Shown: positions 10,365 to 36,600 of the stretch, piece by piece
Position numbering within the stretch: position 1 is the first letter of the stretch
Layout: every line of letters begins with the position of its first letter
DNA from: Saccoglossus kowalevskii
Taxonomy: Eukaryota; Hemichordata; Enteropneusta; Harrimaniidae
DNA length: 36,713 bases
Assembly: GCF_000003605.2 (NCBI RefSeq)
Contig: NW_003140812.1
Coordinates: 1,376,111 to 1,412,823 of the forward strand
Direction: 5' to 3'
Notes under the pieces: generated by a model
What the model saw: only the letters and a program-made list of their open reading frames with translations
The model's database searches: none
Told to the model about the DNA's origin: nothing
Translations under genes and position numbers: made by a program

Positions 10365-10943
10365 CGATATACGGTTGGGTATGTTATTTCTACTTCGATA
10401 ACCTTTGACTGAGTCGGAAGAATAATAACGTTCATTTAAAAGACGATATCACTCACACATACATTAATATATGAATGACCAAAACAAATCAAAATAATTT
10501 TTATATGACATTGACACATATCATAAACAATTTGACATATTTCACTCCACATTTCAGCGCTTGTTTTGTAATTCTAGTATATATAAATATTTACAATGGT
10601 TATGTAAAATTAAAAATGGCCGTGTTGACCAAACTGTTTGCACCGTTGGTTTTACGTGTATAAATATATACTGATGCATATTACTGTATTAAGTCTAGAG
10701 ACACAACATTACATAATAATTACAGAGACAAATAGTGTTTTCATCACAATATCGCTAGCAATTTACTAGTAGTGTTGTCGTGTCATTTCATCGGCGTTCC
10801 CTCTTGATTACCGATCTACTATAGGAATGACAGGACGACTACTCACACGGAGATTGGCAGTTGGTGTTTGGCTTCCATAAATAGTAACAAACGTATATCG
10901 TAGTTATCAAACATGGTAGATATAAGAGAACCGCAGTATGTCT

Positions 10944-11063
10944 TTATTGATACGCATCAGGATTGCCAAACATAACCAGTGTTCCGATGCAATAAATCAA
11001 CAACGATATCCAGAAAAACAACCAATCTGTAACCATGGCAACGTACCTCCACTTCTCCAACAT
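10944..11063 (-). CDS. copy B exon 6 (TM4 and stop)
   Basis: A 120-nt exon after a TTTTCTTAG acceptor. It encodes MLEKWRYVAMVTDWLFFW then TM4, ending AYQ-stop. An AATAAA hexamer overlaps the stop codon, but is too close to act as the polyadenylation signal for this stop with confidence. Confidence 0.92.
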   Translation of the reverse strand: MLEKWRYVAMVTDWLFFWISLLIYCIGTLVMFGNPDAYQ

Positions 11064-14000
11064 CTAAGAAAAAAAAGAAAAAGATGCATATGTATATCAG
11101 GTTATAGTCTTCTATGCCTACGTATTTTGCGTGTGTGAGTCTCAAAAAAGCACACAACTCAAGGAATCTTTCAACGGTCATGAGCAGAAACCATTAAAAT
11201 TGACAATTCAGCTAAATGAACAAATGAAATCTGTGCTAAAATCATGACCATGTCAGGTTATTCCTATATCAGGCATAACCTTATAAGACGCTTAAAACAC
11301 TACAGTCGCCACACAGCGCGCTTTCCAGTGTTTCCAGTAAAAACGGTGTATTTACAACGTTGCATGAAACTCATATTGAGTACGACCTGAAACGGCCAAT
11401 GGTTATATGCTATAACCTGGTTATGCCATGATACACAAGATAAAAGTAACAACTCCGAAAATGCGACAAATTTACTACAAATTAAGCTATTTGATTTGCA
11501 GAAACGTTCTAACTTCACGACAGCCGTGATACAAATTCGTTACATCTTACCCACTTTATGCTTACGGCACATGTACCGTGAATTAACTTACACAAACAGT
11601 CAGCAAACTGTGGTTTATAGTCAGAGGCTGAACTGAACTGAACAAATATTTTCAAGATTCCACGGTTTTTCAAAATCATTTTTTTCCTGGCTCGGTCCGG
11701 GAGATAGAGCACTACTACAAAGAATGGACAGGCACGACTTGCAACGAAAAAGACTGATGAATGGCGGCTTTGACGACTGACTCGGACATACTAGTAATAC
11801 CGTGTGATACTAAAGTAAATATCCTTAGAATATGTTCATACCTCTTTCTTGCTTTCCTCCACTTCCATTGAATTTCGTAAATAATGAACATCATCGTACA
11901 ACTTGTCGAGAATCTGCATCATACTGTTGTCATCGCTACGTGAAACTTCTTTGGGCTGCTTGTCATACTTCTGCAAAGATTCTTCAACGTTTTCGATGAT
12001 CATTTGCGACTTCCTGTTCCCATGATGATTTTGAACATTTGGGTGAATGCTCGGAGCACACCCAGTTCGTTCTAGTGGCTTTAGACACATAATTTTTGGT
12101 AGATACGTGAGGAATAGCTTCTGTACAAACGGACTCATTTTCAACATGTGCTGAGGTCGGTGGTGTAATCGCAAAACAAATATGGCAATAGCGATGGAGA
12201 GAGCGACAAGACACGTGTTAAACAGAAGGTAACGCCCGATCAGTGGGACGCTGTCCGAACTGTGGGGCAACATCTCCCCCACCAGCAAAGTGAAAACCGA
12301 CATCGCTATCAGGATTGATACGCTAAATGACATTTTCTCACCCGAGTCGGCTGGGAGGAAAAACAACAATAAAGTCAACAGCGCCATCATAATAGAAGGA
12401 ATGACTATGTTGATGACGTAATACAGGGGTTTTCTGTGCAATTCGAGAGTAAATGTCATAATATGCCAGGATAGTTCACCATTTTCAGAGAATTCTTCAT
12501 AAAGTGAAACCGATGAATTTATAATATCCCATTCAGAGTTCGGGGCTAGGAGGGCATTGAATATACGATCACTTTCTTGAGTCAATAGCAACTGGTCTAC
12601 GGTGTAGTCCCACGGTCCAAACACCAACTCACATTTCTGCACATCAAAGGGAAAAAAGTCGAGATTCATTCGGCATGGTGTTTCGAAGATTGCAGGTGGG
12701 GTGTAAGTTATTGAACCGTCCGACTCTATACCTAGTCTTTCTGTTTCAGAAATATAAAAATCATTGCCCGCACTGAAAAATACAACAAATACGGCAACAG
12801 ATGAGGTATCATTCACAATGACTGTGCTGTCACTAGTTGTAGTTTCAAATTTGAGGTGCAATTAAGACAACGTTGATGGTGTTGTTGAAACTTTAATGGA
12901 GTGTGGTACTCGTTTGTTTAATCCAAACATATGAAGTTTATAATTCTTGATTAACCTCGACCAAACACTGAAGATTATTGCTCCAGATTTTTTGTCACGG
13001 GTCCTTCTCTAACAACACAACAAATAGTGCAATCTAAATCATTTCCTTACCTATTTTGTATAACGACACCAGGATTCCATATCCAGCTTGTAGGTACGAT
13101 AACTGTACTCAGATTACCATAGTCGGATGGATCCCACTGTAGGCGCTTGTCTTGCCAATACTGTTGTAACAATGAAATGCTAGATTGAAATAGTTGATTG
13201 AAATAATCGATTGAAATGATTGATCGATCAATCGAAAAATTGATTGATTTGTTAATTGATTGATCGATCGATTCTGCAGTCATTCACTCGTTTTATTCAT
13301 TCATTTATTAACTCGTTCGTTTGTTAATCTATTCATTCATTCATTCATTCATTCGTTCGTTTATTCGTTCATTCATTCATTCATTCATTCATTCATTCAT
13401 TCATTCATCGACTGATTTATTTGACCTCACCTGATTTAACCAGCAACTTGTCTTTAATATCTGCTGTTTCTCGACCTAAAATATCATTAGACATTCTAGT
13501 TAGTTTGACATTTGATTTTTTGATAATTACATGGCTGCCGCAATTAAACAATTCCCACTAGCAGTCAATCTTTTGTAAAAACTTACGCAGAATACTCAAC
13601 AATTTCGGAACATCATTTACACTCTGAGTTTAAGAAATACTAAAGTTGCGAATATAAAGTAGAATATAACGCGAAATGCGGTGTTATGGGCAACACGCAC
13701 ATCAGATTTGCTTCTGAAAATACAGCTAATAAATGTGAACAACACATCGTTGCACAAAAAGTTTGAAATAGAGTCAAATTAACCGGCACAGAGCACTTAC
13801 AATTACGAACCAAACAATTGGCTCGTGCATAAAAATACTTGGCTCCTTGGTATAAATAATCACTAACGAAATCCAAATTAGAACCATTTAGATACACATG
13901 GGGGACACTATGCACTTTTATAGTGTTTAATATACATTGAGACGGGTACTGGCGAACTAGGACTTTTGCCGCTACTCTTGTAACGAATGTGTAATTGTTC

Positions 14001-16811
14001 CGGAGATAATTTGTTCGGATGTTATTTTATTGTGAAAACTTGATCTTCTTTTGATTGTCTTGCTTAAAAACTTACAACTTTGAAAACATCTATTGTTACA
14101 GTAGGGAAAAAAATAGAAATAACCATCCCCAAAGTTGAGTAACTTACTTCATCATAATCAGTTCACGACTCCAAGTCGTTGTATAGGAGTTTCGGTGTTA
14201 TGTAATCGGACGCAATGTAAAAGAGTGTAATCACAGAGAAAATATATTTTTTTAACTTACTAGTCAACAAAACAATCGCATACGTTCAACAGAGTGTTAC
14301 ACTTGTTTGAAACTTATTAAATATCAATTATTCTTAAGTGTGTTTCTTTTATCCGGTGCATTTTAAAGAACGTTTGTCGTCTCATCGCGTCCTTTTCGAT
14401 TTAGGTCCCAGCCACATACGTGTTTAAAATATCCATTAAACGAAAAATCGAACTCAGTTTCATGAGATTACCCTTCCCGGGGGCTATAGCCTATATTTTA
14501 TCAAATGAGTATGATCGATGATCGAAAGCAAATGAGGTTATTACAGCAATGATGCCGTACATAAGAACATAATACATTTAAATACATCTAACATCTGTAC
14601 GTAACGTCGTAATAATATCTGCAAAGTAAATACTTGTGACAGGGTACTGACTGGTACGTCTGTTACTAGTACTAGTCGCATTACCAATGTAAATTGAGAT
14701 TACCAATTAATATTGGAGCCACGGAAGTGACGTCATACAATTTCCGATTGATTAACAATGTTCAATTTAAGTATGCCATAATCATATTTCCAAATAAAAG
14801 TGACAAACTGAAGGAAATCATTTGTGATTATTTCTTAATGAGATTTCTTTGTTTACCGATCCATTAAAAAAGTCGGCCTTATACGTGTGTTCCTTTTTAA
14901 CTCCGTTGACAAGTATCCACTGGGCATACATTAGAGGTCTCATTGTGAATACAGTTCAATATTGAAGCATTCAGTATTATCGCGGGACCCTTGACTAATA
15001 TTACCATGCTGGGAATAAATTATTAGAAATCTCCAAAGGAAATAAAAAATGACAGAATTTTGGCAAACAATAAATATCAGGATATTAAGCTATATATCAT
15101 GTCATTAATCCGTCGACATATACAGACAATTAATATGTAAAGAACCACAATGATTCCAGGCATTAATTATTTCCGACATGAAAAGGGATTAAAAGTTAAC
15201 CTTGACATCTCTCACGGATCATCACAATAAAATTACATCATTGTCCGATGAAGCGATGGATTTAAATTTAATCATGAATTTTTAAACATTTAATGCATTA
15301 GTGTGTGAATGGGATTCTTGGATATATTCTCGAAATATGTGTTGATTGTACTGCAATTCAAGTACAATTTGAAAATCGATCTCAGGATCACTGTTATTAA
15401 GTTGTGAAATTAAAGCTGAACACAGGCACAAATCTGATGAATTGTTCATATTGGGAGAGCTTTGTTTGGGTTATTATCGATAAGTGAGATTTGTGTATGC
15501 CTTCACTTTCAATGACTTTTGTGTAGTTTCATAAACCAATCTTATCGCTATTTTGTCATTATTTATTCTCAGTCTCATGTGTTGCGTGTAATACGTATCG
15601 TTCCCAGCAATAACAAATCCATCTAATATATATATACAATATTTACTACAGTTACCAAAGCTCATTCGGGTATTGTTGTTGAAAAACTCATATTTTAATT
15701 TGACAATGTCAATGTCATTGCCAGCATTTGCTCTGAAGAATTGCCAAAAAACAATATTCTAGCAAAAACAATAAGAAAATTCATATTAAATCACGCGTCT
15801 CTCAAAATTGATATAACAAAAACAGAAGGTAGCGTAGTTTCGACATGCAGTGTAACGAACATTTCATGTTAGATGACGTCATTAGTAGGAAGGATCGTGG
15901 TTTCTCATTGTCAACATTTTTAATGCTAACACAAGTGAAATTACGATAAAAAAACACAAATTACAGGGGAAACGTCAAAAAATTGAAACAGAATAATAAC
16001 AAAGACGCATGATGATTTTAAAACGTTTTTTTTTTGTATAGCAAACAATAACATAACCTACGGCCCTGAGCGTTTGTATTGACGTAAATACGGTTGATCG
16101 CAATGCACACCACTTAAAGAAACATAATCATTATATAGCATCATACGATTTGTACAACTTTATTGAGAGTGTTGATAGAATTATAAGTAGTTTCGCTAGT
16201 ATCCAAATGTCATTCTTACCACGTCTAACAGTAGCATAATAACAAGTCCCAGTGTTAACACAACTGGTTCATTATGTTCAGCCGGTCGGGCGTATCTACT
16301 GTAGTTGACGAACAGGTCTGTCTGCAGTTGTTGCTCAACTTCGAAACCACGTACATCTACACGGAAGAAAACACACACGCGTAAGATAGCAAAACAAAAC
16401 ATGACATCTATTCGGGTTTTTAACTTTCCTAAAATATTTTTAATTTCAAGTCGTTTTGATTTTTCTATGTTAGTCATGTGTTTGCCAAGCACGTACCCAA
16501 CTCCAACCCGTATAACATTGGAGATGCCATCGTGGGTAAGAGATTAATTAGCATAATCTGACGCACGCATATGAAATGCGCAGTGTCTATTATTTTTCAG
16601 TTACAGGAAATGCGTTCAGTATAATCATGGGCAACGATATCCTGATGTGCAAATATTTTGAGTTGAAGTGACAACATTGACGGCATATCATATCATACCC
16701 ACACAATTATCACCAAATAGATACGTCATCGTTTAGTTCTTTCCACAATACAAGGCTTTACTTACATGACAGACACGTGATAAAGACAATGACGCAGTAA
16801 GTCCCAGCCAT
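10944..16811 (-). CDS. nicotinic acetylcholine receptor-like subunit, copy B (six exons, complete)
   Basis: Paralogue of copy A. CDS = complement of 16811-16766, 16356-16220, 13475-13431, 13160-13051, 12772-11842, 11063-10944: 1389 nt, 462 aa, all introns GT-AG and in frame. Signal peptide 1-16, NYS sequon, loop D Trp (YWQDK), Cys-loop C146-C160 (13 residues between, FPFD), loop B FGPWDY, TM1 about 229-253, GEK filter with TM2 about 257-279, TM3 about 291-314, TM4 about 435-455. Exons 2, 3 and 4 have the same lengths as in copy A (137, 45, 110). It also lacks YxCC, has WNPG for WxPD and Ile268 at pore position 9'; 19' is Gly where copy A has Ala. Likely a non-alpha cation-channel subunit. Lies upstream of copy A on the same strand. 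Confidence 0.93.
11064..11841 (-). other. copy B intron 5 (778 bp)
   Basis: Separates exons 5 and 6. It contains a TACTAGTA octamer at 11789-11796. Open frames on either strand here lack family similarity and are taken as chance. Confidence 0.75.
11842..12772 (-). CDS. copy B exon 5 (Cys-loop to cytoplasmic loop)
   Basis: A 931-nt exon, acceptor TTTTTCAG|T, donor AAAGAG|GTATGA, residues 114-423. It holds the Cys-loop, TM1-TM3 and a short cytoplasmic loop ending in an MA-like helix (KLYDDVHYLRNSME). Confidence 0.95.
13051..13160 (-). CDS. copy B exon 4 (110 bp)
   Basis: Exactly 110 bp, encoding YWQDKRLQWDPSDYGN through NPGVVIQN plus two bases of Ser113. From the DPSDYGN region onward only two bases differ from copy A over about 92 nt, while the first 18 nt differ at six positions. 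Confidence 0.93.
13172..13410. repeat. GATT-type and (ATTC)n tetranucleotide repeats
   Basis: Degenerate GATT/ATCGATT units at 13172-13272, then ATTC repeats from about 13280 with a pure run near 13369-13409. It fills most of copy B intron 3 (270 bp), the position of the GATT repeat in copy A. Confidence 0.93.
13431..13475 (-). CDS. copy B exon 3 (45-bp micro-exon)
   Basis: Exactly 45 bp, encoding VEKQQILKTSCWLNQ, with acceptor TTTTAG and donor CAG|GTGAGG. It retains the family's length and shares KTSCWL with copy A. Confidence 0.9.
13476..16219 (-). other. copy B intron 2 (2744 bp)
   Basis: Holds a diverged partial copy of the TTAA MITE (14363-14460), TACTAGTA at 14664, two perfect CRE palindromes TGACGTCA (14728-14735, 15874-15881), and a weak exon-5-like frame near 15520-15615. 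No accepted exon. Confidence 0.75.
14363..14460 (+). mobile_element. diverged partial TTAA-type MITE, copy 3
   Basis: Begins TTAAAGAACG and follows the order of the 10232 element (TCGTC, CGCGTCC, TTCGAT, GGTCCCA), with many substitutions and a degraded right end. An old, probably truncated copy in copy B intron 2. Confidence 0.5.
16220..16356 (-). CDS. copy B exon 2
   Basis: A 137-nt exon, acceptor CGTGTAG, donor GTG|GTAAGAA. It encodes residues 17-61 (VRGFEVEQQLQTDLF ... LLLDV) with an NYS sequon. It aligns end to end with copy A exon 2. Confidence 0.9.
16766..16811 (-). CDS. copy B exon 1 (signal peptide)
   Basis: A 46-nt exon encoding MAGTYCVIVFITCLS, a hydrophobic leader. It ends phase 1 at T|GTAAGTA, and the split codon with exon 2 reads TAT (Tyr16). 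Structure is identical in logic to copy A exon 1. Confidence 0.85.
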
Positions 16812-19800
16812 GGAAATGCGACAGTTCCCACACGATAAGTGTTTTATTTCTCTGAAAATCAAACACAGAATTAATACAGGATTAAACATGAATATAACTG
16901 AACCTAACTTATTGACCGATTTTCTACGTGCGTCTGACACATATTCGATTCAGCCAATCGCTCAAAGTACCATTCTCAAAACATTTCAAGTTGAATTGAA
17001 TGATTGCATTACTTTTATGTGTTCTTTAACCTCTGATTACGAATCGATCCCCGTAACAACGGATTATATTAGTTTCATTTTGTAAATTGTGGGAAGTCAG
17101 AGTGAAAAGTATTGAACGTGTAGCTAACTAAAAAATAAAATACTTAAAGAATATATACAAATAACAAACTGTGGAACAAAATGTAATATTATTTGAATAC
17201 CAAAATTATTATTTGGTGTTTGGAAGTTCGGCCAAAATTCGATTGATGTACGATGGGACGACACTTCCTATTGGATATAAATTACATGTACATTACACAA
17301 CACTAGATTAGAGGTCACGACAAAGCCCCTCGCCGATATAAGCAGACGGCATCCCAGTACAGCAAACTAACCGTCCCTACAGGACGGGTCGAAATAACCT
17401 GCAATGAACGCGGATCTACCGTGACTAGATTGCCATGTGCAAGCCGGATATGTGATGCCACATACATCATAAATACATCATACGAAGCCGAGTTTTCATG
17501 GTCAGTATGATCTATCCAATTATGATACATGTATAATGAAAAATACCAGTTATGATACAATAGTCACCTAGCAAAATTGTTAAACATTTTAATAAATACT
17601 TTCCCTATAGTCCCCAATACGTAAAACAAAGATATTGTACTATTATTGCATTCGATCAGCGACCCCATTTCTATGTATCCTGTTGGCGTGAACCCGATAT
17701 AATGGAAATATCAAAAAGGAATTCAGCCCGAGCTCCTAAAAGTCAGCGAGAGACTGGAACTTACCAAGATTATTGGTTCTCGTCAACACATCACATAATT
17801 ATTTAAGATGAACAAATTAATATTTATGGCCGACACAGGTTTGTTACCTAATATCTTTTTAAAGGCTATTTTTAAAACTGAAATTGTCAATTTTGCGTCT
17901 TGTCCGTATATCAAGTGATATATTAGATAAATAATGCGTCACGGAAGCAAACATTGTTTGACTAGTACACCGATATACCAATTAATTACTTGTGTTACTT
18001 TCGCCTAAATTGTGATTAAGATTATATCATTGACTAATCACGAAGACTCGTTCGACTATTTTTAGTCATAATTTGAGCGCGATGTATCCTGGGTAATGTG
18101 AGAATTGTACACGATGTGTTTTCACCTATCGCTGCGTTGAGTGTTGCATTATCAAGCCTACATTCTTTTAAGTGCGATACAGTTTAATTATTCTAACAAT
18201 TAGCCAATTAACTTCCACAGATCTTATATCATGGTGAAGGTGTACCTAAATATGATGCCTTACATTGGCAGCCATTAAGTGTCAAAATGTAATACGAATG
18301 GACTTGTGATGCCCATCATGCTTGCCTATTTCAAAATATGCAAATATCTAATTGTAAACTCGAATTTATTGTGAACTTGACCATTTCCATGGCTATCATA
18401 TAACACAAGTCAAATCAATCAGTTAAATACCGTGACGACAGTCGTGAAACACGTGTTCATAGTTAATATTTAATGCCAATATTTGATATTTGCATTGCAC
18501 ATAACATCTCTCACTCTATAATTTATTTAATGTTTTTACAAATGTATCGATATATCAAACCACACTACCAGAAGTCATGAAGACCCGTGTCAAATCAACA
18601 ATAACTATTTTATGTCGCTTTAAAAATGAGTTCGATGACAAAACCAATCATTCTTACAACCAGTACGCTCTATGTCAAAAGGAAATTAGTTGCATTAGCC
18701 AGAATGAGTTTGAAGCATTTTAATTTAACGATGACGAATTAATTTGTCCGATAAGCGACCAGGGAAATCATAACGATATTTTTAGTAAGTCACTCTTTGT
18801 CAGTTACTGTTCATGTAAATATGACAATTATTCTGAAAGCTTGATATAGAAGAACACAATATGGACATGTTTTTAATATTGACTGCTTAAAAAATAGATC
18901 ACGTAGAATATCAGTTAAATTCGGTTAAAAAAAACGGAATTCACCGTGTTCCTATCACCATACGTTAGAATGCTCACAGCTGTTTCATAAAAAAAAACGA
19001 ATTACCAAATAAACTCTCGAGGTGTTTTTGCCTCAGACGTTTTCAAATTATAAGCTACGACTGATTACAAATCTGATTTTAGTTAATTGTTTTTTAATTG
19101 TTTTTTTAAAGCAAATAAATACATTGTAGTTCCGGGACGCAATTTGTGAAAGTGTCAACGACCTAGTGCGGTTACACGTCTTCTGTGGGCACAACGAGAG
19201 GAATAACTTGTGTTTCACTATTGTGTACTTTTTCCCGTCACAAAATCCGTTAAGCAAGTAAATTACAAAGTTAGGTACATGTTTAGTAACAGAAAGAGTC
19301 TGATTTAAGTATCAATAAATATGAAGTTTTCCCTTGACACTTTCCTTAGAAGAGCTACCATTTCAATGGCGGTGATTTCACGCCAAAAAATATCACTTAA
19401 AAACGTGACTTGTATGCTGACGTTCGCTATTGCTCTGTTATGGTGTGGTCTAAAATGCCAAAGCAACTAAATTCAATATATTTACTAGTATAATAACTAG
19501 AAAACAACTATAAGTGAACTTGGGCGTGAATACACAGTCAGTGCAATACTCAGAAGCGCAAAAATTCACGCTTACGGACTGCTTCTAACACATCCTGACT
19601 AACAAAATGTAAAAATACGTAACTAAAAAAATGCAACGAAATATCGATAAATATGAGTTTGAAATGTAACTTACAGACTTAGCCGTCAAATCAGAATTAC
19701 TTCACGATTTAGGAATGATGATCTTTAGAAGACCCACGACGACTCGGAGAAGTGAATTCAAACAGCGACTGTCACCTCAACAGTCCATTCGTCCCCATGA

Positions 19801-20513
19801 CAACAATATTGTGATTGCTCGTTTTGAAATTAGATCAGCGCAGTTAACGTTTTAATAAATACGGCGTCCACTGTCACTGGGATCTGAACGTCCACCTCGT
19901 TCGCGTCATGTCGGGTGGAAAATAGTAAAATGGAGACAAAAGAACATTCCATTAAGGCCATTAGGGACACACTCGAAATATTAAAACATAATGCTTTCTT
20001 TTTTATCTGAAAACATGTTAAATTATTGATAATAGTCATGTAAGCGTGAAGTAGTGTCCACCCTGAAAAAAAAATGGTTGACCCCAGAAATAAAATATCT
20101 GAGCAGATATCCCTAGTTTGCGCTCCATGAATTAAATTGTTCTGTATACCACACTTTTTAAAACACATACCGCATAAATTAACATTTGTTTTTGTTTATT
20201 AAATTATTCGCTACGATTCAATAAAGCATTTCAATTGATGTTCGTACCCGAAGATAATACATGGTTTTGCCACTAACTACATCGACTATGTCATTTGTGA
20301 CTTGAGAGGTCAGCGGTCGCGGTAAATAGAATCATACGAACATACAACGCTAACTTCAAATACGCCGTCTGACTAAATATCAGATATGAAACTCCTTCAG
20401 TATGGTTTCTTTACATAAAACATAACTAGCATGATACAATGTTTTGGGATTTCCACTGGTATTACTAAGAGTACATGTGGTCGCTAGCAACAAAGAAAAT
20501 TCGAGAAATTGAA

Positions 20514-20730
20514 TACTGTAAAGGGGGTAATTATTCACTGGGTTTTAATTTAGCTTACTAGTATTTCGCTGACTGGAAAATGCGCTAAATTAAAACCCAG
20601 TGAATATGTAACATTTAGCATAGAGCACATTATCTAAATGACGAAACCGTGAATTGAAAACCCACTGAATATGCCTGAAATTGTAAATCAGTGAAATTTA
20701 AACTCAGTGAAAATTAGTCATTTTACAGTA
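20514..20730. mobile_element. TA-flanked MITE, copy 2
   Basis: Starts TA-CTGTAAAGGGG and ends CATTTTACAG-TA. Subterminal blocks of the form CACTGRGTTTWAATTT recur in both orientations, including a perfect 22-bp inverted pair (20533-20554 and 20584-20605). TA flanks and short CTGTAAA ends suggest a non-autonomous Tc1/mariner-like element; no transposase is encoded. Related copy at 2108-2293. Confidence 0.75.
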
Positions 20731-21168
20731 TCCATCATCATAATAAAGTGTTAAAATATACATTGGCCTTAAAGTGGGATCTTCATCTTAATTACCCTAC
20801 GATATAACGTTTTTAGTTTTTCCCTCGTATTTACTATTTCCATTATAAATGTAAATGTGGTCATTGTAATACTTATTTTTTCGAGTGTATCAAATTCTCA
20901 CAACTTTTTATTTTAATTACACTGTAATATCAGCAACTTCATCCTTAGTTAGGGTCTGCTTCCATATTTATCATGGTTACTATTTACTATCCTGGGAAAA
21001 CATTGAAGCCTGACTTTTAACGCAACGACTTTCAACACAGAGTGTACGGTTTAAGTTTAATGCATACAATATTTCGCAGCATATACATAATATTTTATAT
21101 ATATTAATTCTATTTTCGAATTGTGTAGCAACTAGGGACACGCTGTTTTCATAATATTATTACATTAG

Positions 21169-21374
21169 CATCTATCAATTAAGACAACGTCTGTTTACTG
21201 CGATGGGAGTACAAACATATACTTGTTCTAATAATCTGCATTGACTGTAACAATATTAACGATTATTAACGACATTGACATCTATCAATTAAGACAACGT
21301 CTGTTTACTGCGATGAGAGTACAAACATATACTTGTTCTAATAATCTGCATTGACTGTAACAATATTAACGATT
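21169..21374. repeat. 110-bp-period tandem duplication
   Basis: About 96 bp repeated after 110 bp (21169-21264 and 21279-21374), with one mismatch (GATGGGAGT versus GATGAGAGT). Recent duplication by its near-identity. Confidence 0.95.
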
Positions 21375-22042
21375 GGTAAATGACATAATGTATAAATATC
21401 TTAACACGTCTGTTCATCTATTAATTACGTTTATTACAAAGTGAGATGCAAGAAACCTGCAGAGGGCGCAATAGGGTATTAATATTTATCAGTGGTGGAA
21501 CTTTATTTAATTTTCACAGTTACATGGAATAAGCGAGTGATGACCAGGTGTGGCATATATGGGTTTGAAAGATATCTCAGTATCAATACTTACTTATCTG
21601 ATAGCTATCATCAGAAAGATTGTACTCTGGCGAACAAACAATTTAAACTAACTTAGGGGGCCGAATCTTGTCGATTTAAAGAATGTGAACGAAAACATAC
21701 AATGTTTAATGCTTTAAAAATATTGCCAAAATTGCATTATGATTTATCATAAAATAAAAATGTTATTTTTTCAGCACATTTTGTAATATATGTTTTTATG
21801 AAAAATGAGAAACATTGTGATTAAAACAACCAACCCACATGCGAATTAGATAATAGCATCGTTTCATCTTAGAACCCTAGGGTATATGTTTCATCAAACG
21901 AATATGTACTAGTTTATAATAAATCATAACAAATCATAAACTAAAATAAAAAGTAACATATTTTAATAAAGGCTAAGAAAAAATGCTCCCACAAATCATA
22001 GCATTTTCATCATCACTCTCGGGAAATGAATGAATCAAAACA

Positions 22043-23727: not shown

Positions 23728-26700
23728 TGGTCAAATAAAAACACCGTAGAGAAAGTTACGATTTGTCCACTGTTTGCTCAGTGTTCAAATACTAGTATAT
23801 ACAAATGCCGACCCCAGGTAATATAGTTAATCGTCACTTTGTATAACCTAATATTGTTACCCTAACTTGAAATCCGACAAAACCAGAACGTTCAAATGTC
23901 CACTTTAAATATGCGACGATGTGTTTTAGGCACTCACTTTATCTCTGTCTGTTGCGTGGATTCCCCATTCTATGAGTCAGCCTAGATTTCTTCCAGCCGA
24001 TTATGACGTGTGATAAAAGGAACGTAGCTACATTACAAACATCTAAGTAGTCTTCTGGAAATAATATCCATAAATATCACCGACTCAATGGTATTTCATG
24101 TTAGGTTCGATGACCACCATCGTGATTTCTGGAGTCGCGTCGATAACAGGAGAACTGAAATCGTCTTGAGTTAATTGCGCCAAGCGACCTTAGACAGTCA
24201 CCTGCGATATTGCTTTGACATCCCCAAAGTGAGACGTTTTCCGTTACTAATAAAACCGTTATAAAGCGAGAGCCATTTGATCGATTACTTCTTTAGTTCT
24301 TTGGTTGTAAACCTTTATTGCGTTTTACACACAATGGTGTACGTATTATACTGGTCATGACTTTCTGTTAACAATATTTCCAATTCAGGCTTCTAATAGA
24401 AGTCACTCAGCTGTGGTAATTACAATCGCTGTCCATGTCCTGTCATCGCTATGTGTCGTTTGACACTAGAGTATAAAAATTGAGGTGGTTCCCTTCGTAA
24501 CTATGGAGATGGAGTATTTTGTTTGATATTACGCATATTGGACTATGATTTAGCGTAACTTACAAGTTCTGATTTTGGGTTCGAGATGCGCTCATGCGCT
24601 TTGTATTACTTATACGTATTATGAATTCATCGTGGTTAGTTATTCCACGACAATAAATATATGTGTGATGCGACCCAATTTTCTTTAAGGTGTGGGTCAT
24701 ATTCAATTGAAGATGCGACTAAAAAAATATCCACAATATTGCTACCATGAACTTTCAGCCAATTCGAAGTTCAACTTTTGAGGTTATAAGATGAAATCAT
24801 TTTCTCAATTTCTGACAACAGCGGATATGATGTCATACTTTACCCATAATCAAGATGGCGGACTACATAAATTAATGAAAAGTTGAATATCTAGAGAATG
24901 AAAAGTGATATAAAAAACTGTGAATTGCATGTTCGTACATTTGCCGAGCTCTTTTATCTGAGAGTATTATGTTGCCTGACTTTTTCTTTAAGATGGCGTA
25001 CATTTTGTGAGGTCGCCTTTTATTACACTTGCAGTCACACAATATTACTGCACTTTTCATTTAACATTTGAACCACCGAGAGAATTACTACTGCATGCAA
25101 TATCATTTAATTGGCAAACGTCATTGACTTTTACGATCTAATCTGTTTTCCCGTCTGACAAACGGTGTTCGTCACCTTCTGGCGCCCTCAACGACAAGAC
25201 AGTAAAAATCGTTTCAATTCCAAAATGGCCATAGCAACAGAAATCTTACCCACACCATGGAGCTTATTTTTTTAGCTCCAGGCCCACACGTACACTAGCA
25301 GTATAGTTATCTACAATTACCAGTTTTGGAGGAGGACTTTAGCTTACTTTGAGTTTGGAAAACTGAGCATAACTTGAAGGTTTTGTTGATTTTCTTAAGT
25401 TGGCTAAATCTGTACATGGTGGTTCTCTTGATACCTCCATGATCTGTAGTAACCCTAATGACATGAGTCAGTAGCGTCAAGCACAAACCCACTTCAGCGG
25501 GCTGTCCACTCAACTTGAACTCATGTTTACATTGAAAGCGTGAGTGTAAGCGCCTTGGTAAAACAAACCACACAAACCACGCCACGCTTAAATGTTTGAA
25601 TAAACTAAATGCCGGTTAAGGTTTTATTTACGTCTCAATATCGACTACTAAGGCATTCCAAGCATTACATAGTGCATTCGTGTTACACGTTGGTAATGCA
25701 ATGCGGAATGAAGGTTGGTGGTATGTACCGGGTGCACAGTATCCACTTTCCAAATATTACAAAATTTGCTATTTTCTCTAAACGATGTAATTAACGATTT
25801 ATACATTGCGATATTATGATGTTGAACTTCCGGCTTCCTATATGACGTCCAGCATTGCTAAGTGACGTGCAGTATATCACATTCCTTTTTAAAAGGACCG
25901 TGACAATATGTAGGTTGGTATGAATGTCCGGGTACCTCTATGGGTCGTAGTGTCTAGTCAACACCGCGACGTTAACTATATCAGCGGGTTCGTCTTAAAC
26001 GACGTCGTCAACAGTCACCGGGACGTCGTGTAATCAGCGGCAGTGCTGTCGAATTAAACTGGCCAACTAAAATGCTAGCGAGATGACCCTTCACTGTTCT
26101 CTGGTACTCTGTGAAGTGCATGTGTGTGTTTTAATAAAGCAGGAGCTCATTCGTCCTGCTACGAAACAATACCACGCTGTTGTAATTCCTGCGTTTGCAT
26201 GGAGCAGTCACGGGACTCAAAACGCATTTTTTTTTTTAATTTAACGTTTAACCGTTTCATCAGAAATACCGAACGTTCAAATAGCATACATCACAATACC
26301 GAAATAAACACAATATATGCAACGACCTTAGACAAACAAACACTAGTCTAATGCATTGCGTGGATATGTAATTATGGGTTTCGTGTCTTGGTGTGCATTA
26401 CCGACTGGTTTGACTTCTTCAGTTCCCGACAGATGTATAACATAACACGTGGTATAGACATACACACACATGATTGCAACAGTCCAGTACGTGCAGGACA
26501 CTTGGCAACAATTTATAACATTGGTGCGTATTGAAATTGAATGTCATCGTCGTCGGTGGTGTTGTTCAATGTTGTTTATTATTATTATTTTACCCGAGAT
26601 TCATTAGTGTTTTCAAAAAAAAGTTTCAAGTTCAAATTGTTTCTTTAGTAATAAACCATGGACCTACGTAGAATAAACCAAAATACTCTCATATGTAACC

Positions 26701-27096
26701 TTGTACATTTACGCCGGAAAACAAAACACATTCCAACAAACCTAGCCAACACAAATGCGTAAGGGGATTAGGATTACTTGTCAGTTCCTGCCGCATTACT
26801 GGGGGAAGCGTCATGTGGTTGACCTCCGAGGCGCTCTCCAGTCAAAATACTTTTAACACACCCCTTAAGTGATTAGTCAGACAATGTGAGTATAGTCTCG
26901 GGTCCCTTATAAGGCGCACAGATACCTCAGTGTGGGAGGTAAGACTAGTTTACGCATGCGCAATGGTACGATTCACCCCTTATAACCGAGAGAATAAGAT
27001 ATATCGGTGTGCATTTTGACTATTGAGGCGTTGCAAAGCTGTTCTTGGGCAGCATTGTCGATACTTGTAGAAGCCAACACACACTAGTGGAAGAAA
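23728..27096. other. intergenic region with candidate control motifs
   Basis: 3.4 kb between the divergently oriented 345-residue gene and the methyltransferase gene, so it should hold both promoters. Seen: TACTAGTA at 23790, two AAGATGGCG (YY1-like) motifs near 24849 and 24991, a GAGGGCGC motif at 25182-25190 (minus), and TATA-like boxes at 26908 and 26981. No gene recognised. Confidence 0.6.
26908..26986 (+). promoter_or_regulatory. candidate promoter of the methyltransferase gene
   Basis: Two TATA-like elements (TATAAGG at 26908 and TATAACC at 26981) and an NRF-1-like palindrome CGCATGCGCA at 26953-26962 lie 110-190 bp upstream of the ATG. Motif-based only. Confidence 0.3.
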
Positions 27097-28143
27097 ATGG
27101 CGTACTCAGTGAACGACCCTGTACAAATCCTGGCTCACGTACATTCGTATGCTATCACCCAGGCTTTGGTGGGAGCTTGTCATCTTCGACTGTTCGACCA
27201 CATGGAAAATGCTGGGATCGCTTCGAAACAACTGGCGGAGAATTTGTACGCTGATCCTGAGGCGATGGAAGAGCTGTTGAATGCGTTGGTGTCTCTAGGT
27301 TACGTGGAAAAGATAAATGCTGGTAATCGGACCGTCCAGTATAGGAATACGCCCATCAGCAGCACGTACTTAGTTACCACAAGTGCACAATCGCTGTATC
27401 CATACATTATGATCCAGGGCCAGGTCGCTTACCCTGTACAGGCTAACTTCAGACATGCCGTCCAGGAGGGAAAGGCTCAGGTTGAACGAACTTTCGGACA
27501 CGCCAGATATTTCACCAATATTCTGGCGAATGACCAGAAGAAAGCGATGGGTTTCTTCGCGTCCATGCACGCCCTCTCACGTGTCTTTCACTGCCCCGTT
27601 GCCTTGGAAAGCTTCGATTTATCAGCGTATCGTGAGGTCTGCGAATTAGGTGGTGGTACCGGGATGGTGGCCCTGGCCCTAGCTCAGACCTACTCGACGA
27701 TGAATATCACGGTGTTTGACCTGCCACCAGCTATCGAGGCGGCGGATAAATTCATACCATTATCAAGCAAACCTGAAAATCTGAGATTTCAGAAGGGGGA
27801 TTTAATGAGGGATTCCCTGCCGTATTGCGACCTGTATGTACTCTCCCATATCATTCACACGTACAGCGAAGACCAGGCGAGTTACATATTGAAACAAGTC
27901 TACGCTTCTTTATCCCCGGGCGGCGCTGTTCTAATCCTAGAGAACCTATACAACGATGACAAACGCGGTCCCCAATTTACTCACATGTTTTCTCTGAGTA
28001 TGTTGGCATTTAGCGGAACGAGACAACGATCGTTTCCAGAGCTGAAGTATCTCCTTGAAAGGCAAGGGTTCAAGAACATTGAAGCAAAAAGAACCGGGTC
28101 GCTGTCTGATGCTGTTCTTGCTCTGAAACCGGCTTTACATTGA
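27097..28143 (+). CDS. ASMT/HIOMT-like SAM-dependent O-methyltransferase (intronless)
   Basis: 348 aa, full family length, no intron. N-terminal helical dimerisation/winged-helix region (about 1-110, ITQALVGACHLRLFDHM), then a Rossmann SAM-binding domain: motif I ELGGGTG (183-189), acidic end of beta 2 VFDLP (206-210), GDLMRDSLP (234-242), and the catalytic region LSHIIHTYSED (249-259) with the family's general-base His at 254, followed by LSPGGAVLILEN with Glu282. It resembles acetylserotonin O-methyltransferase, which makes melatonin from N-acetylserotonin, but members of this family act on many phenols and the HDW motif reads HTY here, so the substrate is uncertain. The ATG lies in a good context (AAAATGG). 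AATAAA is at 29006, distant. Confidence 0.9.
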   Translation: MAYSVNDPVQILAHVHSYAITQALVGACHLRLFDHMENAGIASKQLAENLYADPEAMEELLNALVSLGYVEKINAGNRTVQYRNTPISSTYLVTTSAQSLYPYIMIQGQVAYPVQANFRHAVQEGKAQVERTFGHARYFTNILANDQKKAMGFFASMHALSRVFHCPVALESFDLSAYREVCELGGGTGMVALALAQTYSTMNITVFDLPPAIEAADKFIPLSSKPENLRFQKGDLMRDSLPYCDLYVLSHIIHTYSEDQASYILKQVYASLSPGGAVLILENLYNDDKRGPQFTHMFSLSMLAFSGTRQRSFPELKYLLERQGFKNIEAKRTGSLSDAVLALKPALH

Positions 28144-31100
28144 TCAACGTTGAACATCTTCATTATATCCGGACCCTTTCATTAGAATGGAAAACATAAA
28201 TCCCAATGTCGCCATTACTGCATATACATGCGTTTGATGTGTACGTTCATTCACGTACTCTGCTCTGCATTCACCGCGGAGTGACCTCCAGTAAACCAGA
28301 CATTCATTCATTTGTTCATTTTCTAATTATCCAGCATACCGTACACTCGTTCACACGTACTCACTTGTGGCCTTAGAATACTGGTGAATAAGAATTGAAA
28401 TAATTCGATTATTCGATGTAAGGATTACGTATTACACAACGCACCCGTTTCGCGTGGTCGTTTATTAGTAGTTTAAGATATCATGGCGCAGTTCTTCTCC
28501 GTCGTTGAGAAGTTTCGCTGAGACGAACACTTGAAATGTCAATAATTCCCCAGGTCAATGCACTTTAATTTTCTAGTCATATTTCACCTGAAACTGTAGT
28601 TTGTTTCAGATTTAATGAAATGTAATGTTAATTAATTTAGTAGTTGTCAATTTCCCGTACAGCGATGCATATATTCATAACAGCGTTAATGATTTTTAAT
28701 TCCCAGGGGGCTGGAACTCAGTCCCGGAACTCAGTAAAGGGGTTAGTTTACATTGCTGTGAGATCTCGGATATGGTTACGGTTTTTAAGTAGATACATGT
28801 TTGCCCTGATCGATCACTCGTTCTTGTGCGTGTACAACTTTATTGCGAATGAATTTTAGTACTCGTATGTAGGACGCTCAACCATGCATACTTCTGTGGC
28901 TGTTATTAGTATTTCCACTTAGGCACATACACTTTCACGGCGCATGCGCATAATTCTCAGTGTGTAACCATGGAGACAAAACCGGGATGATTACCAGATT
29001 TCTGCAATAAATATATCTTAGTTTCTGTAAATCTTATAGTGTTCTGCTATCACGTGCCAGTTTATGTAGTGTGTGAAGGTGCAAGTTACGTAATTGTAAA
29101 CGTTAATGAACTATATAATGTATGTAGAATCGATTGTGCAGTTCAGACTACCAATTTTTCTCTTTGTTGAAATACCAGTGAAATTACTACTGAATACAAA
29201 TCAGCAAAAAATCATGAAGGCTACCATTGTCCAAACTATTTTCACATTTCAAACAGGCTGTCAACACTCTATACATAAAAACTTTGCGACTTCATTGCGT
29301 CTTGAGAACAGAATCTCAATTTTCAAGTAGCGGCGCTCCCAGCGCTGTGGTATTTTTATTTTCTTAAATAACACGCGGACTCATTACAATGAATACTTTT
29401 ATCCAACACGAATGACCCATGCGTAATTAGTGCAGAGTGAATACGTGTACGTATCAAACCTTTCAAACATATACAACTTCAGTCCGGGATTTTTACGCGA
29501 TTTCTGCGTTAAAATTTGTCAGCGCGTTTTGTGCAAATGTCCCACGGTACCTTTAGCAATAACTCTGAAGAGCCCCACCTCATTATAGAGCATCAATGCT
29601 TTCCGACGTTTAGGCATTGTTGATAACATGTCAACCTCTCACAGCGAAGCAAAGGCGTCCGTTAACTTTCAATTCCTCGAGTATGCATTGTGATCACTTA
29701 TAACGAAAGGCATTGAAAGGATGTCTTTCAGACGGTATTTTAGCAAACCTACCACAGACAAGTTGTTAACAAGAATGTGTTCATTTCTTTGTGATGGGGT
29801 GGCATTGAGAAAAGGGGTGTGTCGCTTTTTGTCGACCCCCCCCCCCCCTGCTGGTGTGGGGTCAATCTCCGATGACATTGGACGCTGGCAATGAAACAGT
29901 ATTTGTGGACCATGCTGATGTCGAGGGCCATGGTTACAACACACTGTCACCTGTGGTATCAGCTATGGCTGAATGTCTGCTTTCAGTTGTCCGCATCAAA
30001 TACCACATGAGCATAATATAGGATAGTCATTTTTACGGAATGGCAAACAAGCTACACTTCTAGGAGTTTGTGTAAATCAAAAGCAATTAGTCGCCGTAAG
30101 GTGTTTAAAATGATTGAGAGTGTGAAAAAGAGGATGACCTTATTCGGACCTTTTTCATCGATCTTTCATGATAAAGAATACTAAGTACTAATATTCACCC
30201 CATACCCTAAAAGTGAACGTGCTTTTAGCTTTTGGCCGTTCTAGATAATTTGGTGTTGCCTGTTTGACTGCGGATCCGTTGATCCCCCGAAGTGAACGAA
30301 ACACGCTACAGCTGTGCGCTGCTCGAAAGGGCGTGCATACCACATGCGGATGAAAAGTTCGGGCTCGGGGCCGAGGTTTCACATTCCATCCCACCATGCA
30401 CTTAAACACATATAACTTTTGTTTTCGTTTTCTCACCAGTTAATAGAAAGTATAAACACTGGTTCACGAATGTACGTGTATGCGTTTTTAATTTGAACGT
30501 TCGCCCCAGGCTGAGACTTCAATCGATGTCTTGATGTTCTGATTTATTTCCTAAATCACGGTGTTAATACCGGATATGCAAATGAAGCTTTCAAGCTGCA
30601 TACTCATGCATGATGTGAGAGACGAGATAGCAACCCTCCGCATAAGCAAACCTCAAACTACAATGAAAACAATAACGAAATTTAGAATAACGACGTGAAC
30701 ATTTGCGTGCAAATCAATTTATATCCATTGACAAGTGTTACGGAGCACGAAAGACGGCTGCTTTATCGGTGTCCAATGAATCATACTCAATCAGCCAAGA
30801 TGGAACGAGGCGCCCTCTATTGATGTACATTGATTCACGCTGACGATGATGGCGCCGTTGCTTCAAATACTAGTAGTAAATAAGTTTTATCACTGTACTG
30901 TAGTTATACTTTACCAGAATATGACCTGTCCGCACATTCCAATCCCCCGTTGTTGGATTATTGTTTAGAATGGAGATTATAAACAAATATTACAAGTATT
31001 TTATAAATAGATTGTTTACCTATTGTATTCAGTAGTGGCAACTTTTCAATTGGCTTTAACCGTGAAAAACATCCCTGGTAATCGCGTGATCGTGCCAACG

Positions 31101-33256
31101 ATTGCAGCGATTGGCTGGTCGCATGATTACTTTGCCACGCCTTAGAGATTTCACTTTTAATATAGAGTTTGCAAACTTTGGCAAGGAGAGAGATCGGCGC
31201 GACGAGGGGGTTACCTTGGCTGATTGATTGGGAGAATAAAGCTGGACTATCTGTAATGAACTTATGTGTATTCATTTGGGTCGAGTCTGTACCTCTACGT
31301 GTAAGTGACATCAGCCAAGCGAGACGAAGATCCCTGATCCCTGACATGACATCTGTATCAGTTGGATTTAATATGCATCATTTCGTTGTTATTATATCAA
31401 ATATAATAGTTATTGAATACGAGTGTTGTCGAATCGAATGGTACGTTTTACTGATGATTGCTTTCGTTTGATGCATGATGATTCCGATGCTTAATTTTGC
31501 TCATGTATGTATTATACTACATTCGAGGAGAGAGATGACACAGGAAAACTGAGCAACAATTAACGGGGAGCAATATGTGTCACCTCTTGTGACAAATATT
31601 CACTTGTCGGTGAATATTGTTCCAGAGGAGGAGAGGGGAGGAAGTATTGACGTTGCCCTCAGTTGTGGCTACAATTTCTATAATGCTTGAAAAAATGGCT
31701 AGAAGTCTGTTATTTTGAACTTGGTTTTCGAAGGCCATAACACTTGTTATTTAGTTTTTAAAGTGCCCGTGGATTTCAGACAGTGGTGATTATGATGATG
31801 TATTACGCCACTTTCACTTTCAGATCACGTACTAGTATATAGTGAAAACAAACACCGCGTTTAGCATGAATGACACTCATCGCATTCCGTTATTTGTTCT
31901 AAAATTGCAATTTGTTTATTATAATATTTGATCAATTTTCCCCCAAATACAGCGCAGAAACAGCATTCTGATGTACTGATCCACAGCATAGTGCTGTTTA
32001 ATGTCACCAATGAACTGTAGTTCGATCATGGTTGTATATTCTGAGAACTAGCCCCGCTCGCGTGGGAATTCAGTGTTCCAAAGTATTTGATCCTAATATA
32101 TACTATTTAAAAATGAGATGTTCGTAAATAAGAAAAAATATGTAAATTGATGATTGTTGATTGGTAATAAAGATATGTTACACGCACTAGGCTATGTATT
32201 ATCATACTTGAAACGCGCGTCAGATGGCCATAGCGTGTCATTCTTAAGAAACAAGCGTCTACCCATGAGCCTTCGCGTTTTTAGCGTGTGTTGTTATCGT
32301 CGCTTAGGGCCCAATTCCCACTCGTGCGCAGGGGACGACCCCCCGCTTTAAATACGGACATTACGTTTTCCGTGCGGCCTGAAAAATATTTACTATGTTA
32401 TCACAACGCACGTTAAAATACGCCCATAGCGTCGTTCTATGTATGACCACTAATCGATACATTTACCGCATCTTATTAAACGTTATACTTATAACTATAC
32501 TTTATATACTATATACTTTGATCCAGACATTCTATTAATCACACAGGTATATCTAAACCAAATATCGACGTGCGGGCAGTGTTATTTTCAAATTAAACCA
32601 TTCAAAAATCGCCACTCGAATATTCAACAACATTGCATTGTTATTTTTACACTGAGAATTTGCACACGGATTTGCATATCAACTACGTAGTGTCCTTTGA
32701 ACTTCAACGAAGAGCGCACCTAGCTTGGTATCTGGTTCTCAGGGAATTAGGGAATTAACGAAATTTGCTGCGAAGTCATCTGTATTTATTCTCAGACTAC
32801 TATATATGTTTGGTCACAACGAGGTCACGTGGTGGTAAATATTCAGTCGACAATGAAAGCTCAGTGAGATCGATTGCGCCTAGGCACAGTTCCCCTATCA
32901 CTGTCTATGATAGAGAAACTGTGGCCTAGACCAATAATGTCCCATTCGATTAACTATATATACCTATATACTGAGCTTCGTTTCGGTAACTACTTGATTA
33001 TTATTTTATTGCACGTATAGATCGCAAAACATGCGTGATAAACAGGGCATTACTCGGTAACCTTGCCTCGACTTCCAAACCTCGTGTACCACGCGCACAG
33101 TAGATGCCGTTAATGTTTCTTATGCTGCCCTCATCGGTATTTGTTTTTATACTGCAGTCAAAGTACGGACAACTCCGAATATGCAACGAATGGTATACAA
33201 ATTAAGCTACGCATGTTCACATCGGAAATGTGATTGGTCGAATCTCGCCAACTCAC
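28144..33256. other. non-coding interval downstream of the methyltransferase
   Basis: 5.1 kb. It contains an NRF-1-like palindrome GCGCATGCGC at 28940-28949, a 13-base C run at 29836-29848 at the start of a 70-codon open plus frame (29809-30021), a GAGGGCGC motif at 30810-30818 (minus) and TACTAGTA at 30868 and 31830. Longer frames (for example 30958-31347 minus) show no domain. Confidence 0.6.
29006..29011 (+). terminator. possible AATAAA polyadenylation signal
   Basis: First canonical AATAAA noted downstream of the methyltransferase stop, about 860 nt away. It could end that transcript, but the distance makes this uncertain. Confidence 0.25.
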
Positions 33257-33395
33257 TTAAAACGCGGTGGTCGTCGCGCAGCGCGTGTTCGAATTTCATG
33301 TAAATACTAGTAAACAATTTATTTTACACGCGTTGTATACGTCACTGTGAGTCTCATATCGAACAGGACGCGGCACGACGAATGTCGCCTTTTAA
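33257..33395 (-). mobile_element. TTAA-flanked MITE, copy 2 (inverted)
   Basis: Reverse complement of the element at 10232-10364 with a handful of substitutions, bounded by TTAA at 33257-33260 and 33392-33395. It carries six extra bases that create a TACTAGTA at 33305-33312. Confidence 0.8.
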
Positions 33396-33483
33396 GTCGT
33401 GGTACAAATTACTAGTAGTTTTATCATGAACACTCGATGATTACGGGTTATTCCCGCTATATGCCGTACTGAACATCACGTGA

Positions 33484-33643
33484 CAGTGGCGGACCCAGAA
33501 AGAAGGGGGCATGCCCCCCCCCCCCCAAACGCATGACGGTTCATATCATCTGGATTATGCATGCTCTGCGATTTACGCTCCGTATATCTTAAGCGAAGCT
33601 TGGACCCCCCCCCCCCTAATACATTTTGCTGGATCCGCCACTG
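33484..33643. mobile_element. hAT-type MITE with 8-bp target duplication
   Basis: Terminal inverted repeats CAGTGGCGGA[CT]CCAG at 33484 and 33643, flanked by TCACGTGA (33476-33483) and TTACGTGA (33644-33651), an 8-bp duplication with one change. CAGTGGCGGATCCAG ends and 8-bp duplications are typical of hAT MITEs. Interior has two long C runs. No coding capacity. Confidence 0.85.
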
Positions 33644-33651
33644 TTACGTGA

Positions 33652-36600
33652 TCATCATTTAGCTTATAGTAGTACATATCCTATACTTAGTTCCATGTGG
33701 TTCTTTAGTTCTAAGGAGGGATATAGTTTACTCCTGATTCTTGATGTAATTTGTAACGCATATAACATAAATGGGCATATGCGTCATATAATTGAAATGA
33801 AGAAGGATTTGTCTAGCATACCATCAACGTTCAGCAAAACGATGTCCCAATCGACGCACTAAAAAGTCTACATGTATTACGTGAAATGCAATAAAGTGGA
33901 AATAAAACACCATAACGTAGATCTTTTAACAAATATAGCACAGAAAAGAAGTTCATGAACACAAAACAGCTATAACAAAAATAGTCAAGTTTAGTTTATT
34001 GTTAAAATAGTTTACAATAAACATGGTAACATTATAACATTACTAGTAACTGATTTTATTATTGACAGCAATATATTCCTTTGAATCAATAATACGATTC
34101 GAATTTCTAATAAAGTATTACGTCCCGGTTGATCACATGTGCAAGAAATGAGCGGAGAAATAAGTCTGGAAGATGATATATGGACGCCACAACCAAGACA
34201 AATATCACCGGCGCCAGCCTGGTATTAAATTTCGAACGTACTGACGCAGAAGTAAGTGGAACACGTCGGAATAATTACGCACGAATTCTTTAACATTGCC
34301 ATGTTCCACAGTCTATAGAGGGACTGTGTACGTTCTAACAGCAAGCAATGTAGAAGTGAAAAAAATCAATCATTGTTTACTTGAATTGTTTACTTTACAT
34401 GGATTTCTTACGGCGTTATATTTTTCATTTCGAAACATTTCGCACAAAAAAATGTCATTAGTACTAGTTTGGGTAGGACGAACAATAGAATACATGTCAA
34501 ATACAATAGTTTTAGATTGTAATCGATTAAACAAAAAACAAGTAATCGAAAATGAGAAATGAGTAATTATCATGATATACATATCTTGAAACTTTTTGTT
34601 CGTCAATCACATCGCCTGATCTTCCATCGGCCGTGCTGTAGGCATATATAGTTACCGCGCCATGATTTCCCGATGAAAGCAAACAAAACTTTTACATAAT
34701 AGCATAGAGTACAGTCAATGACACGTCTGTTGATATGGAACTAAATACGACACGTTGACGGCACTTTTGTGTAGTATCGTGTAAAAAGGTTAGTGTCCGG
34801 TGTTCTAAGATACTAGTAGAATTATTATAGATTATTATAGCACAATAGAGATAGAAACGATATAGTATCATGGTGGTGGGTTTAATGGGACACCGTCGTT
34901 AAGCCGAGGGAGGTGAGTGGGAAAACAATGAAAAAAACAATTACCCGGTTGTGTGTAGGGATTGTTTGTGTAATGGAAGTATTACGGCATTCAGAACGGC
35001 ATTCACCCCATTAACGCTCAAAAACGACGAACCTAGCAAGTACGAACCTCGTGATATACTCTTCGCGGTCGGCTTTTCAGAAAATGGCACATCGACCAAA
35101 TTAGTAAAAACAAACTTACCCTATCGCTGTTTAATTTGTGAAAATTCACCGCACACAATGAAACCTACATTATGTGCGGATATGATCTACACATTTATAT
35201 CTCTAACATGTCTAGTAATGTATTCATTTGGTGTCTTTGGCATGAACAGAATTTACCTATATTACAGAGTTCTCGTAGAAACATTACATGGTACTGATTG
35301 CTTCGCTGTACGATGCGTTCATTACTTGTACGGCACTGTGTTCGAAAATCAATACATTTTTCTAAGTGTATGAGTCTTTCGTCCAAAGAACCCACGAAAC
35401 AGGGAGGTAACAGGGCTAGGCTGCAGTCAATTTCAGATTCAAAAATAGAAAGGCCCAATAAACGATTGACAGTTTAAAATATTGCCGATGCCATTCGTTC
35501 CGCGTGAAGGAGTTGATAATATCTTATCCAACTAATAAATGACGATTTTATTCAGCACGCTAGGTGCATATGGTACTGACCTCAGACCAGAAGCAATCCA
35601 ACTGGACATAAACACTTCGTTTTTCTTAAGTTAATTCCGATTTTAGATACGAGTTGGTCCAACCATTTTCAGCCAGAAACAAAAGTTCAATTGAAACCTT
35701 GAGAACAGTCACATTCACTCAGCGTCTCACGGAAGCCTGGGGCTATTCACACAGCTTGTATAATGATGGATTTGGTTTCTTGGTTTCAATTAAGACAGGC
35801 TTAAATGTTGAATACTAGACAACCCTCCTGAGACTGTGTAAACATTGACTGTTTGATCAACTTCTGGGACTCACCAGTACCAGTCTTGTATTTGTTCGTA
35901 ATTTATACGCTAACAGTGAAAGTGACTGATGAAGGTGACTGATGAAGATGGAAGATGATATAGGTGACTGATGATTGGGGTTACTTTGCAATGGACTAAT
36001 TCTAGATCAATACAATATAAGGGAATTCACTACTCAATATCTCATACATATTACATACACTAGGTTATAGAGCAGATAAGATTCCATCTCTATCATAAAG
36101 GTATGAGGTTTCCGAGAATGATGTCAACACTCGAAGTCCTAACAGACGCGAAAATGAATATATTGGCCATTTCAAATCAGTGATAGTAATTTCAGTTCAG
36201 TTCACCTTCGCGCCAACGTGCGCTTTTTCGACCATCGCTTCATCACTACGTTAATATAACATTTAATTACCCATATTTGGACATTGAGTTACGTCATTGT
36301 TACATTTTGTCGTCCATGAATCTGCATAGGTTTTTTACGTTGATTTCGGTAACGAAATCGCATGCAACTATCCCGGTTATGCGGGTTTGTGACGTAGAAA
36401 TGAAAGCAGATTTATTTTCAAGCGAGAAAGCGTAACGTCTGCGTACCAGCGATACGCGCACTCATGTTACGGGCTACGGTATTCCACACAACGCACTACA
36501 CTGGGCAAAATCGTTGGTATACGACGGGTACATTAGCGTATTCGCACGCGTATATTCCCGATATTCGAAGATATACGTTGGTCGGCGCACACGTACATTC

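Follow-up and report, generated by a model that had tools for sequence, protein, structure and literature searches.

Palindromic octamers in the Saccoglossus kowalevskii genome as probable excision footprints of TA-bordered transposons

The window analyzed here (the whole stretch of 36,713 bases) contains two minus-strand open frames, at 1162-2124 and 11836-12861, that match neurotransmitter-gated ion-channel domains; they are neighboring parts of nicotinic-receptor-like genes that seem to have arisen by tandem duplication, and the repeats there are spaced 10.6-10.7 kb from each other. An O-methyltransferase open frame of 351 codons, with no intron in its span, lies on the plus strand at 27088-28143, and an Rfam scan of the window gave no match. 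The features with which we are concerned are two MITEs, two copies of a dispersed repeat and the copies of the octamer TACTAGTA, as follows.

2108-2293 (2110-2291 without the TAs), unstranded: MITE with ends TA-CTGTA...TTTACAG-TA, 182 bp without the TAs
10232-10364, minus strand: inverted copy of the dispersed repeat at 33257-33395, with plain TA at the site (window comparison, base-level reading)
10764-10771, unstranded: TACTAGTA, presumed scar, exact word, without a spanning repeat copy in the compared sequence
11789-11796, unstranded: TACTAGTA, presumed scar, exact word, without a spanning copy in the compared sequence
14664-14671, unstranded: TACTAGTA, presumed scar, exact word, without a spanning copy in the compared sequence
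19483-19490, unstranded: TACTAGTA, presumed scar, exact word, without a spanning copy in the compared sequence
20514-20730 (20516-20728 without the TAs), unstranded: second MITE, with ends TA-CTGTAAA...TTTACAG-TA, 213 bp without the TAs (207 bp in scar-free copies)
20556-20563, unstranded: TACTAGTA scar in the second MITE, plain TA in 7/7 other copies read
23790-23797, unstranded: TACTAGTA, presumed scar, exact word
30868-30875, unstranded: TACTAGTA, presumed scar, exact word, without a spanning copy in the compared sequence
31830-31837, unstranded: TACTAGTA, presumed scar, exact word, without a spanning copy in the compared sequence
33257-33395, plus strand: copy of the dispersed repeat carrying the scar at 33305 (self-comparison of the window, genome search)
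33305-33312, unstranded: TACTAGTA scar in the dispersed repeat, six letters missing from 23/23 copies read
33410-33417, unstranded: TACTAGTA, presumed scar, exact word, repeat matches partial and none spanning
34041-34048, unstranded: TACTAGTA, presumed scar, exact word, without a spanning copy in the compared sequence
34811-34818, unstranded: TACTAGTA, presumed scar, exact word, without a spanning copy in the compared sequence

A sequence-only reading of this DNA had listed 12 copies of TACTAGTA, and we found all 12 as exact words (the one it placed at 19493 lies at 19483), with none in the first 10.7 kb, as it had also reported. Its estimate that base composition would give about one copy agrees with Markov models of orders 1-4, which predict 0.62, 0.63, 0.97 and 1.46; order 5 and the maximal order predict 4.9 and 9.75, and we discounted these two values because they are built from the sub-words of the word itself. 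Among the 136 TANNNNTA classes, TACTAGTA was the most enriched in the window (12 versus 0.97). The six one-base variants of the word (14258, 17960, 21907, 22279, 22590 and 34462) are likewise all present, but the proposal that such variants are decayed scars was rejected, since the window total of one-mismatch neighbors (23 versus 20.8 expected) is at background level.

The sequence-only reading had also proposed a genome-wide count, and the excess it anticipated is there: TACTAGTA occurs 24,545 times in the whole 572-Mb assembly versus 9,229 times for the reversed word and 5,717 times for the palindrome TAGTACTA, a control with the same composition and TA flanks that is thus 4.3 times rarer. 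The surplus over TAGTACTA is 18,828, and, going by the TAGTACTA count, chance explains roughly a quarter of the TACTAGTA words in the genome. Genome-wide, TATACTAGTATA occurs 730 times versus 75 for its reversed control. We also sampled 20 stretches (200 kb, of which 104.8 kb was readable) placed without regard to the words and found 5 copies of TACTAGTA versus 1.74 expected, which ranks it ninth of the 136 TANNNNTA classes. The genome-wide excess is therefore real but moderate per kilobase, and the window is, as a consequence, a local concentration: the genome rate predicts 3.0 copies in it when the count is taken over readable sequence only (P for at least 12 copies, 7e-5, a post hoc value because the words were the reason for choosing the window) or 1.6 when all sequence is used.

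Two of the twelve window sites (33305 and 20556) could be compared with other copies of the sequence around them. The dispersed repeat that holds the first is G+C rich and ~139 bp long; a first look gave 1,286 genomic candidates, and its copies are ~90% identical. At 33305 it reads ATGTAAA-TACTAGTA-AACAA, and its inverted copy in the window reads ATGTAAA-TA-AACAA. When the genome was searched with 33240-33420 and the best 40 of the 1,286 candidates were scored, all 39 of the other copies listed were 5-9 bases shorter over the match. Base-level reading of 23 other copies (21 of the 39 listed, comprising 20 that were fetched and the one in the window, plus L019 and L026) showed the six letters missing from every one and a plain TA in 21, the exceptions being L097, with AA at the site, and L019, with its TA aligned one base over. 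The site at 20556 lies inside the second MITE; among the best 40 of 1,946 candidates scored, the other copies listed (39/39) were full length, 93-95% identical and 5-7 bases shorter over the match, and all 7 that were read (L022 and, from the 39 listed, the six copies L105-L110) had a plain TA. Since the other copies read lack the six letters at 33305 and at 20556, the change ran from TA to TACTAGTA at both. Each remnant has a TA on either side where unoccupied copies have a plain TA (21/23 and 7/7), as in a footprint, and at these two of the twelve window sites the interpretation of the octamers as scars is supported directly.

In all, 61 octamer sites were examined; 3 had TA-only paralogs, 2 (one pair) shared the word and 56 were without a spanning paralog in the compared sequence. 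A locus outside the window, L045, reads TACCGGTACTAGTA where its paralogs L004 (81% identical) and L047 (77%) have one TA, so that scars are stacked there on a single TA; the weak matches of L045 to L020 were too gapped to read, and L035, which reads TACTAGTACATGTA, had no paralog for comparison. The TA-only counterparts for which the sequence-only reading had advised a search were thus found at 33305 (21 plain TA among 23), at 20556 (7/7) and at L045 (two paralogs), in copies of repeats rather than in orthologous alleles. Paralogs L039 and L042 (~81% identical) both carry TACTAGTA at the same place, either as an inherited scar or as a word native to that repeat, and one TACTAGTA therefore need not equal one separate event. 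Flank joining within the compared sequence gave no element-filled or empty MITE sites; one apparent spanning match, at L008, was the left flank of that element itself, extended by seven of the element's letters.

Excision of Tc1, an element with CA...TG ends, leaves TACATGTA. In the random 104.8 kb, TACATGTA (22 versus 5.9) and TACCGGTA (8 versus 0.71) stood at the top of the 136 TANNNNTA classes after TATATATA, an excess measured in these sampled stretches; TATATATA is a dinucleotide run, and its excess and that of ATATATAT reflect TA runs. A census of clean six-base gaps, blind to the word and drawn from self-comparison of 195 kb of readable sequence from 82 sources, gave six loci once repeated entries from the L018 tandem array had been merged: two were TACTAGTA (both in the window), L018 supplied one TACATGTA and one TACCGGTA, and of the last two, one was a short duplication and the other resembled a microsatellite change. 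Loci chosen because they contain TACTAGTA made up part of the census sequence; all four scar gaps lie outside them, and L018 was picked blind. An earlier, looser census of less sequence, without L018, had given 7 six-base gaps, two of which were CTAGTA. The array in L018 (G000:C342:250001-260000, about positions 1-1440) consists of ~21-bp units with TACATGTA at 971, TACCGGTA at 1185 and a plain TA in other units. Thus, TACATGTA and TACCGGTA likewise gain six letters at a TA, and tandem arrays of this type are natural empty-site assays.

We examined the spacing between the TAs in 126 kb, for which eight stretches that lie between known octamers and were likely to be readable were added to the 20 blind ones, and found the effect limited to four letters, spacers of 2, 3 and 5 letters giving nothing comparable. 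With six letters, a TA run aside, TACATGTATA and TACCGGTATA led; both are scars with a TA after them, and TACTAGTATA (4 versus 0.44) came a few ranks below. The word CGCATGCG, which is not of the TA-flanked kind, was over-represented in the readable sample (6 versus 0.38), and not every palindrome in excess is therefore to be treated as a scar.

As the sequence-only reading had stated, the MITEs at 2108-2293 and 20514-20730 have CT...AG ends and a TA at both borders. An inverted-end scan for TA-bordered elements gave 22 pairs, six of them CT ended and all six belonging to a single kind that has CTGT as its outer ends (one of these pairs joins the ends of two neighboring elements, the other five being single elements). 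The nine MITEs that we used as queries begin with CT at 18/18 ends (17 CTGT, 1 CTGA), most having been picked by such ends, and a profile search of 153.6 kb recovered 12 of them, whole or as fragments, the nine queries included. They are MITEs by size (177-213 bp), by the TA at both borders in 10/10 elements checked and by near-identical copies with unrelated flanks. Stowaway elements terminate in CTCCCTCC, whereas the ends here read CTGTAAA, CTGTGGA and similar. The scan also gave one CC...GG-ended element (L015, 88 bp) but no CA-ended element, although TACATGTA is in excess; the remnant letters match the ends of resident TA-bordered elements for CT...AG (the MITEs) and for CC...GG (the one element). 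Of the six copies of the second-MITE kind that were fetched, five were identical to one another across 207 bp and had unrelated flanks, from which we conclude that this kind spread recently, a statement about recent spread only and not average age, because the fetched copies rank high among the matches to the window copy (which differs from the identical ones by five substitutions and the scar). The suggestion in the sequence-only reading that the MITE transposes at a high rate is supported only indirectly.

Taken together, these observations make it very probable that the TACTAGTA octamers are mostly Tc1/mariner-type excision footprints. Transposases of this group make their 3' cuts precisely at the element ends and set the 5' cuts two to three letters inward, as described in PMC2170065, and for Stowaway-like elements in yeast, footprints repaired by end joining have been described (PMC4561436). 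Here, a Tc1/mariner-type transposase would cut out a CT...AG-ended element sitting between two TAs, presumably two letters inside each 5' end, such that a TA and a two-letter overhang would stay on each side of the break. Because CT cannot pair with CT, the break would be sealed by end joining that keeps both overhangs, yielding TA-CT-AG-TA and a net gain of six letters, and overhangs of CT, CA and CC would give TACTAGTA, TACATGTA and TACCGGTA by the same joining. We infer the transposase class, the germ-line repair by end joining and the CTGT...ACAG family as main source; the words are fixed in the assembly, which suggests that end joining operates in the animal's germ line. Local hopping, described for Tc1/mariner elements (PMC2874221), could account for the density of the window (12 presumed scars in 24 kb).

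Judged by end letters and abundance, the CTAG scars are likely to derive mainly from the CTGT...ACAG MITE family. It is also possible, though we think it unlikely, that they come mainly from some other CT...AG-ended family (autonomous, older or in unread stretches), given that the source was assigned by end letters only and that about half of the sequence in the 20 random stretches was readable. The genome holds 27 DDE_3 transposase matches, CTGT ends were absent at the three of these loci that were fetched, so that no matching transposase appeared among the loci examined, and no autonomous partner was recognized by eye among the 30 longest of the 98 open frames in the fetched stretches. Against this alternative, all six CT-ended pairs from the scan are of the CTGT type, which is common and recently spread.

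The remaining alternatives dispense with excision by a transposase. Slippage of DNA across a hairpin could remove MITEs without transposase and leave octamers as remnants; the MITE at 20514 folds strongly as a single strand (z -5.9), and palindrome loss by slippage is discussed for Stowaway elements (PMC1925063). Such remnants should vary in length, yet enrichment is seen only with four letters between the TAs, and the exact two-plus-two remnant is the same for three end types; we therefore set slippage aside as improbable. Selection on TACTAGTA as a functional motif, for example, a protein-binding palindrome, would suit a palindromic word that is locally dense in the window, but the word is missing from other copies of the repeats at 33305 and 20556, its one-base neighbors are neither depleted nor in excess, and TACATGTA and TACCGGTA behave the same way, so that we regard this explanation as more improbable still. 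Chance and base composition draw only on the weak excess in the random sample (5 versus 1.74), and the genome-wide and window counts and the TA-only copies at two sites leave them with next to no likelihood as the origin of the octamers. The regulatory motif and chance were accordingly both set aside on the plain TA copies at two sites and the 4.3-fold rarity of TAGTACTA.

Transposon movement in the past is usually invisible in a single genome, as excision takes the element away. If each excision is marked by a word, and repeat copies serve as built-in controls for the empty site, that history would become countable from one assembly. We put at even chances the broader proposition that this genome is a readable excision archive holding tens of thousands of four-letter scars, scars upon scars included, in which the letters CT, CA and CC name the end of the departed element. 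If so, counts of TAC-N-N'-GTA words could serve to gauge, for any genome, how much each element class was excised in the past. The scars also bear on the route of break repair in the germ line of this animal: if they arose there, end joining and not homologous recombination seals such breaks.

A literature search by title or abstract opening found no published census of such scars; in text searches, the MITE end words had no match, and the octamer together with "footprint" and "transposon" gave only an unrelated match. In vitro, ISY100 transposase cuts at the exact 3' ends and, on the 5' side, two letters into the element, the same cut as is proposed here, but ISY100 is bacterial, and its ligated junction, as described in PMC2170065, is TATATA, with no four-letter remnant. 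Sleeping Beauty and ZB share the TA target and membership of the Tc1/mariner superfamily, but the footprints described for them are of zero to three bases (ZB) or of odd length (Sleeping Beauty), unlike the four letters between TAs seen here (PMC2874221, PMC7913693). In Caenorhabditis elegans, the typical Tc1 scar in somatic cells is +4 (78%), a product of end joining, and germ-line breaks are instead repaired by homologous recombination (PMC13148408); the four added letters, two per end, are as in our case, but the Tc1 scar described there is somatic and the ends are CA, whereas the words reported here have CT ends and stand in an assembly, presumably inherited. The closest likeness is to Stowaway in the wheat tribe, a TA-bordered MITE with CT...AG ends for which five footprints are described in one intron; one of these, TACT...AGTA in Thinopyrum elongatum, has the same letters as TACTAGTA (PMC1925063). 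The widespread footprint in that system is TA...GTA, in one intron of many plants, whereas here thousands of copies of one form occur in one animal genome. The kind of footprint is thus already known, with the same letters in one plant, and it is the number of the words, their sister words and their stacking in one animal genome that is notable.
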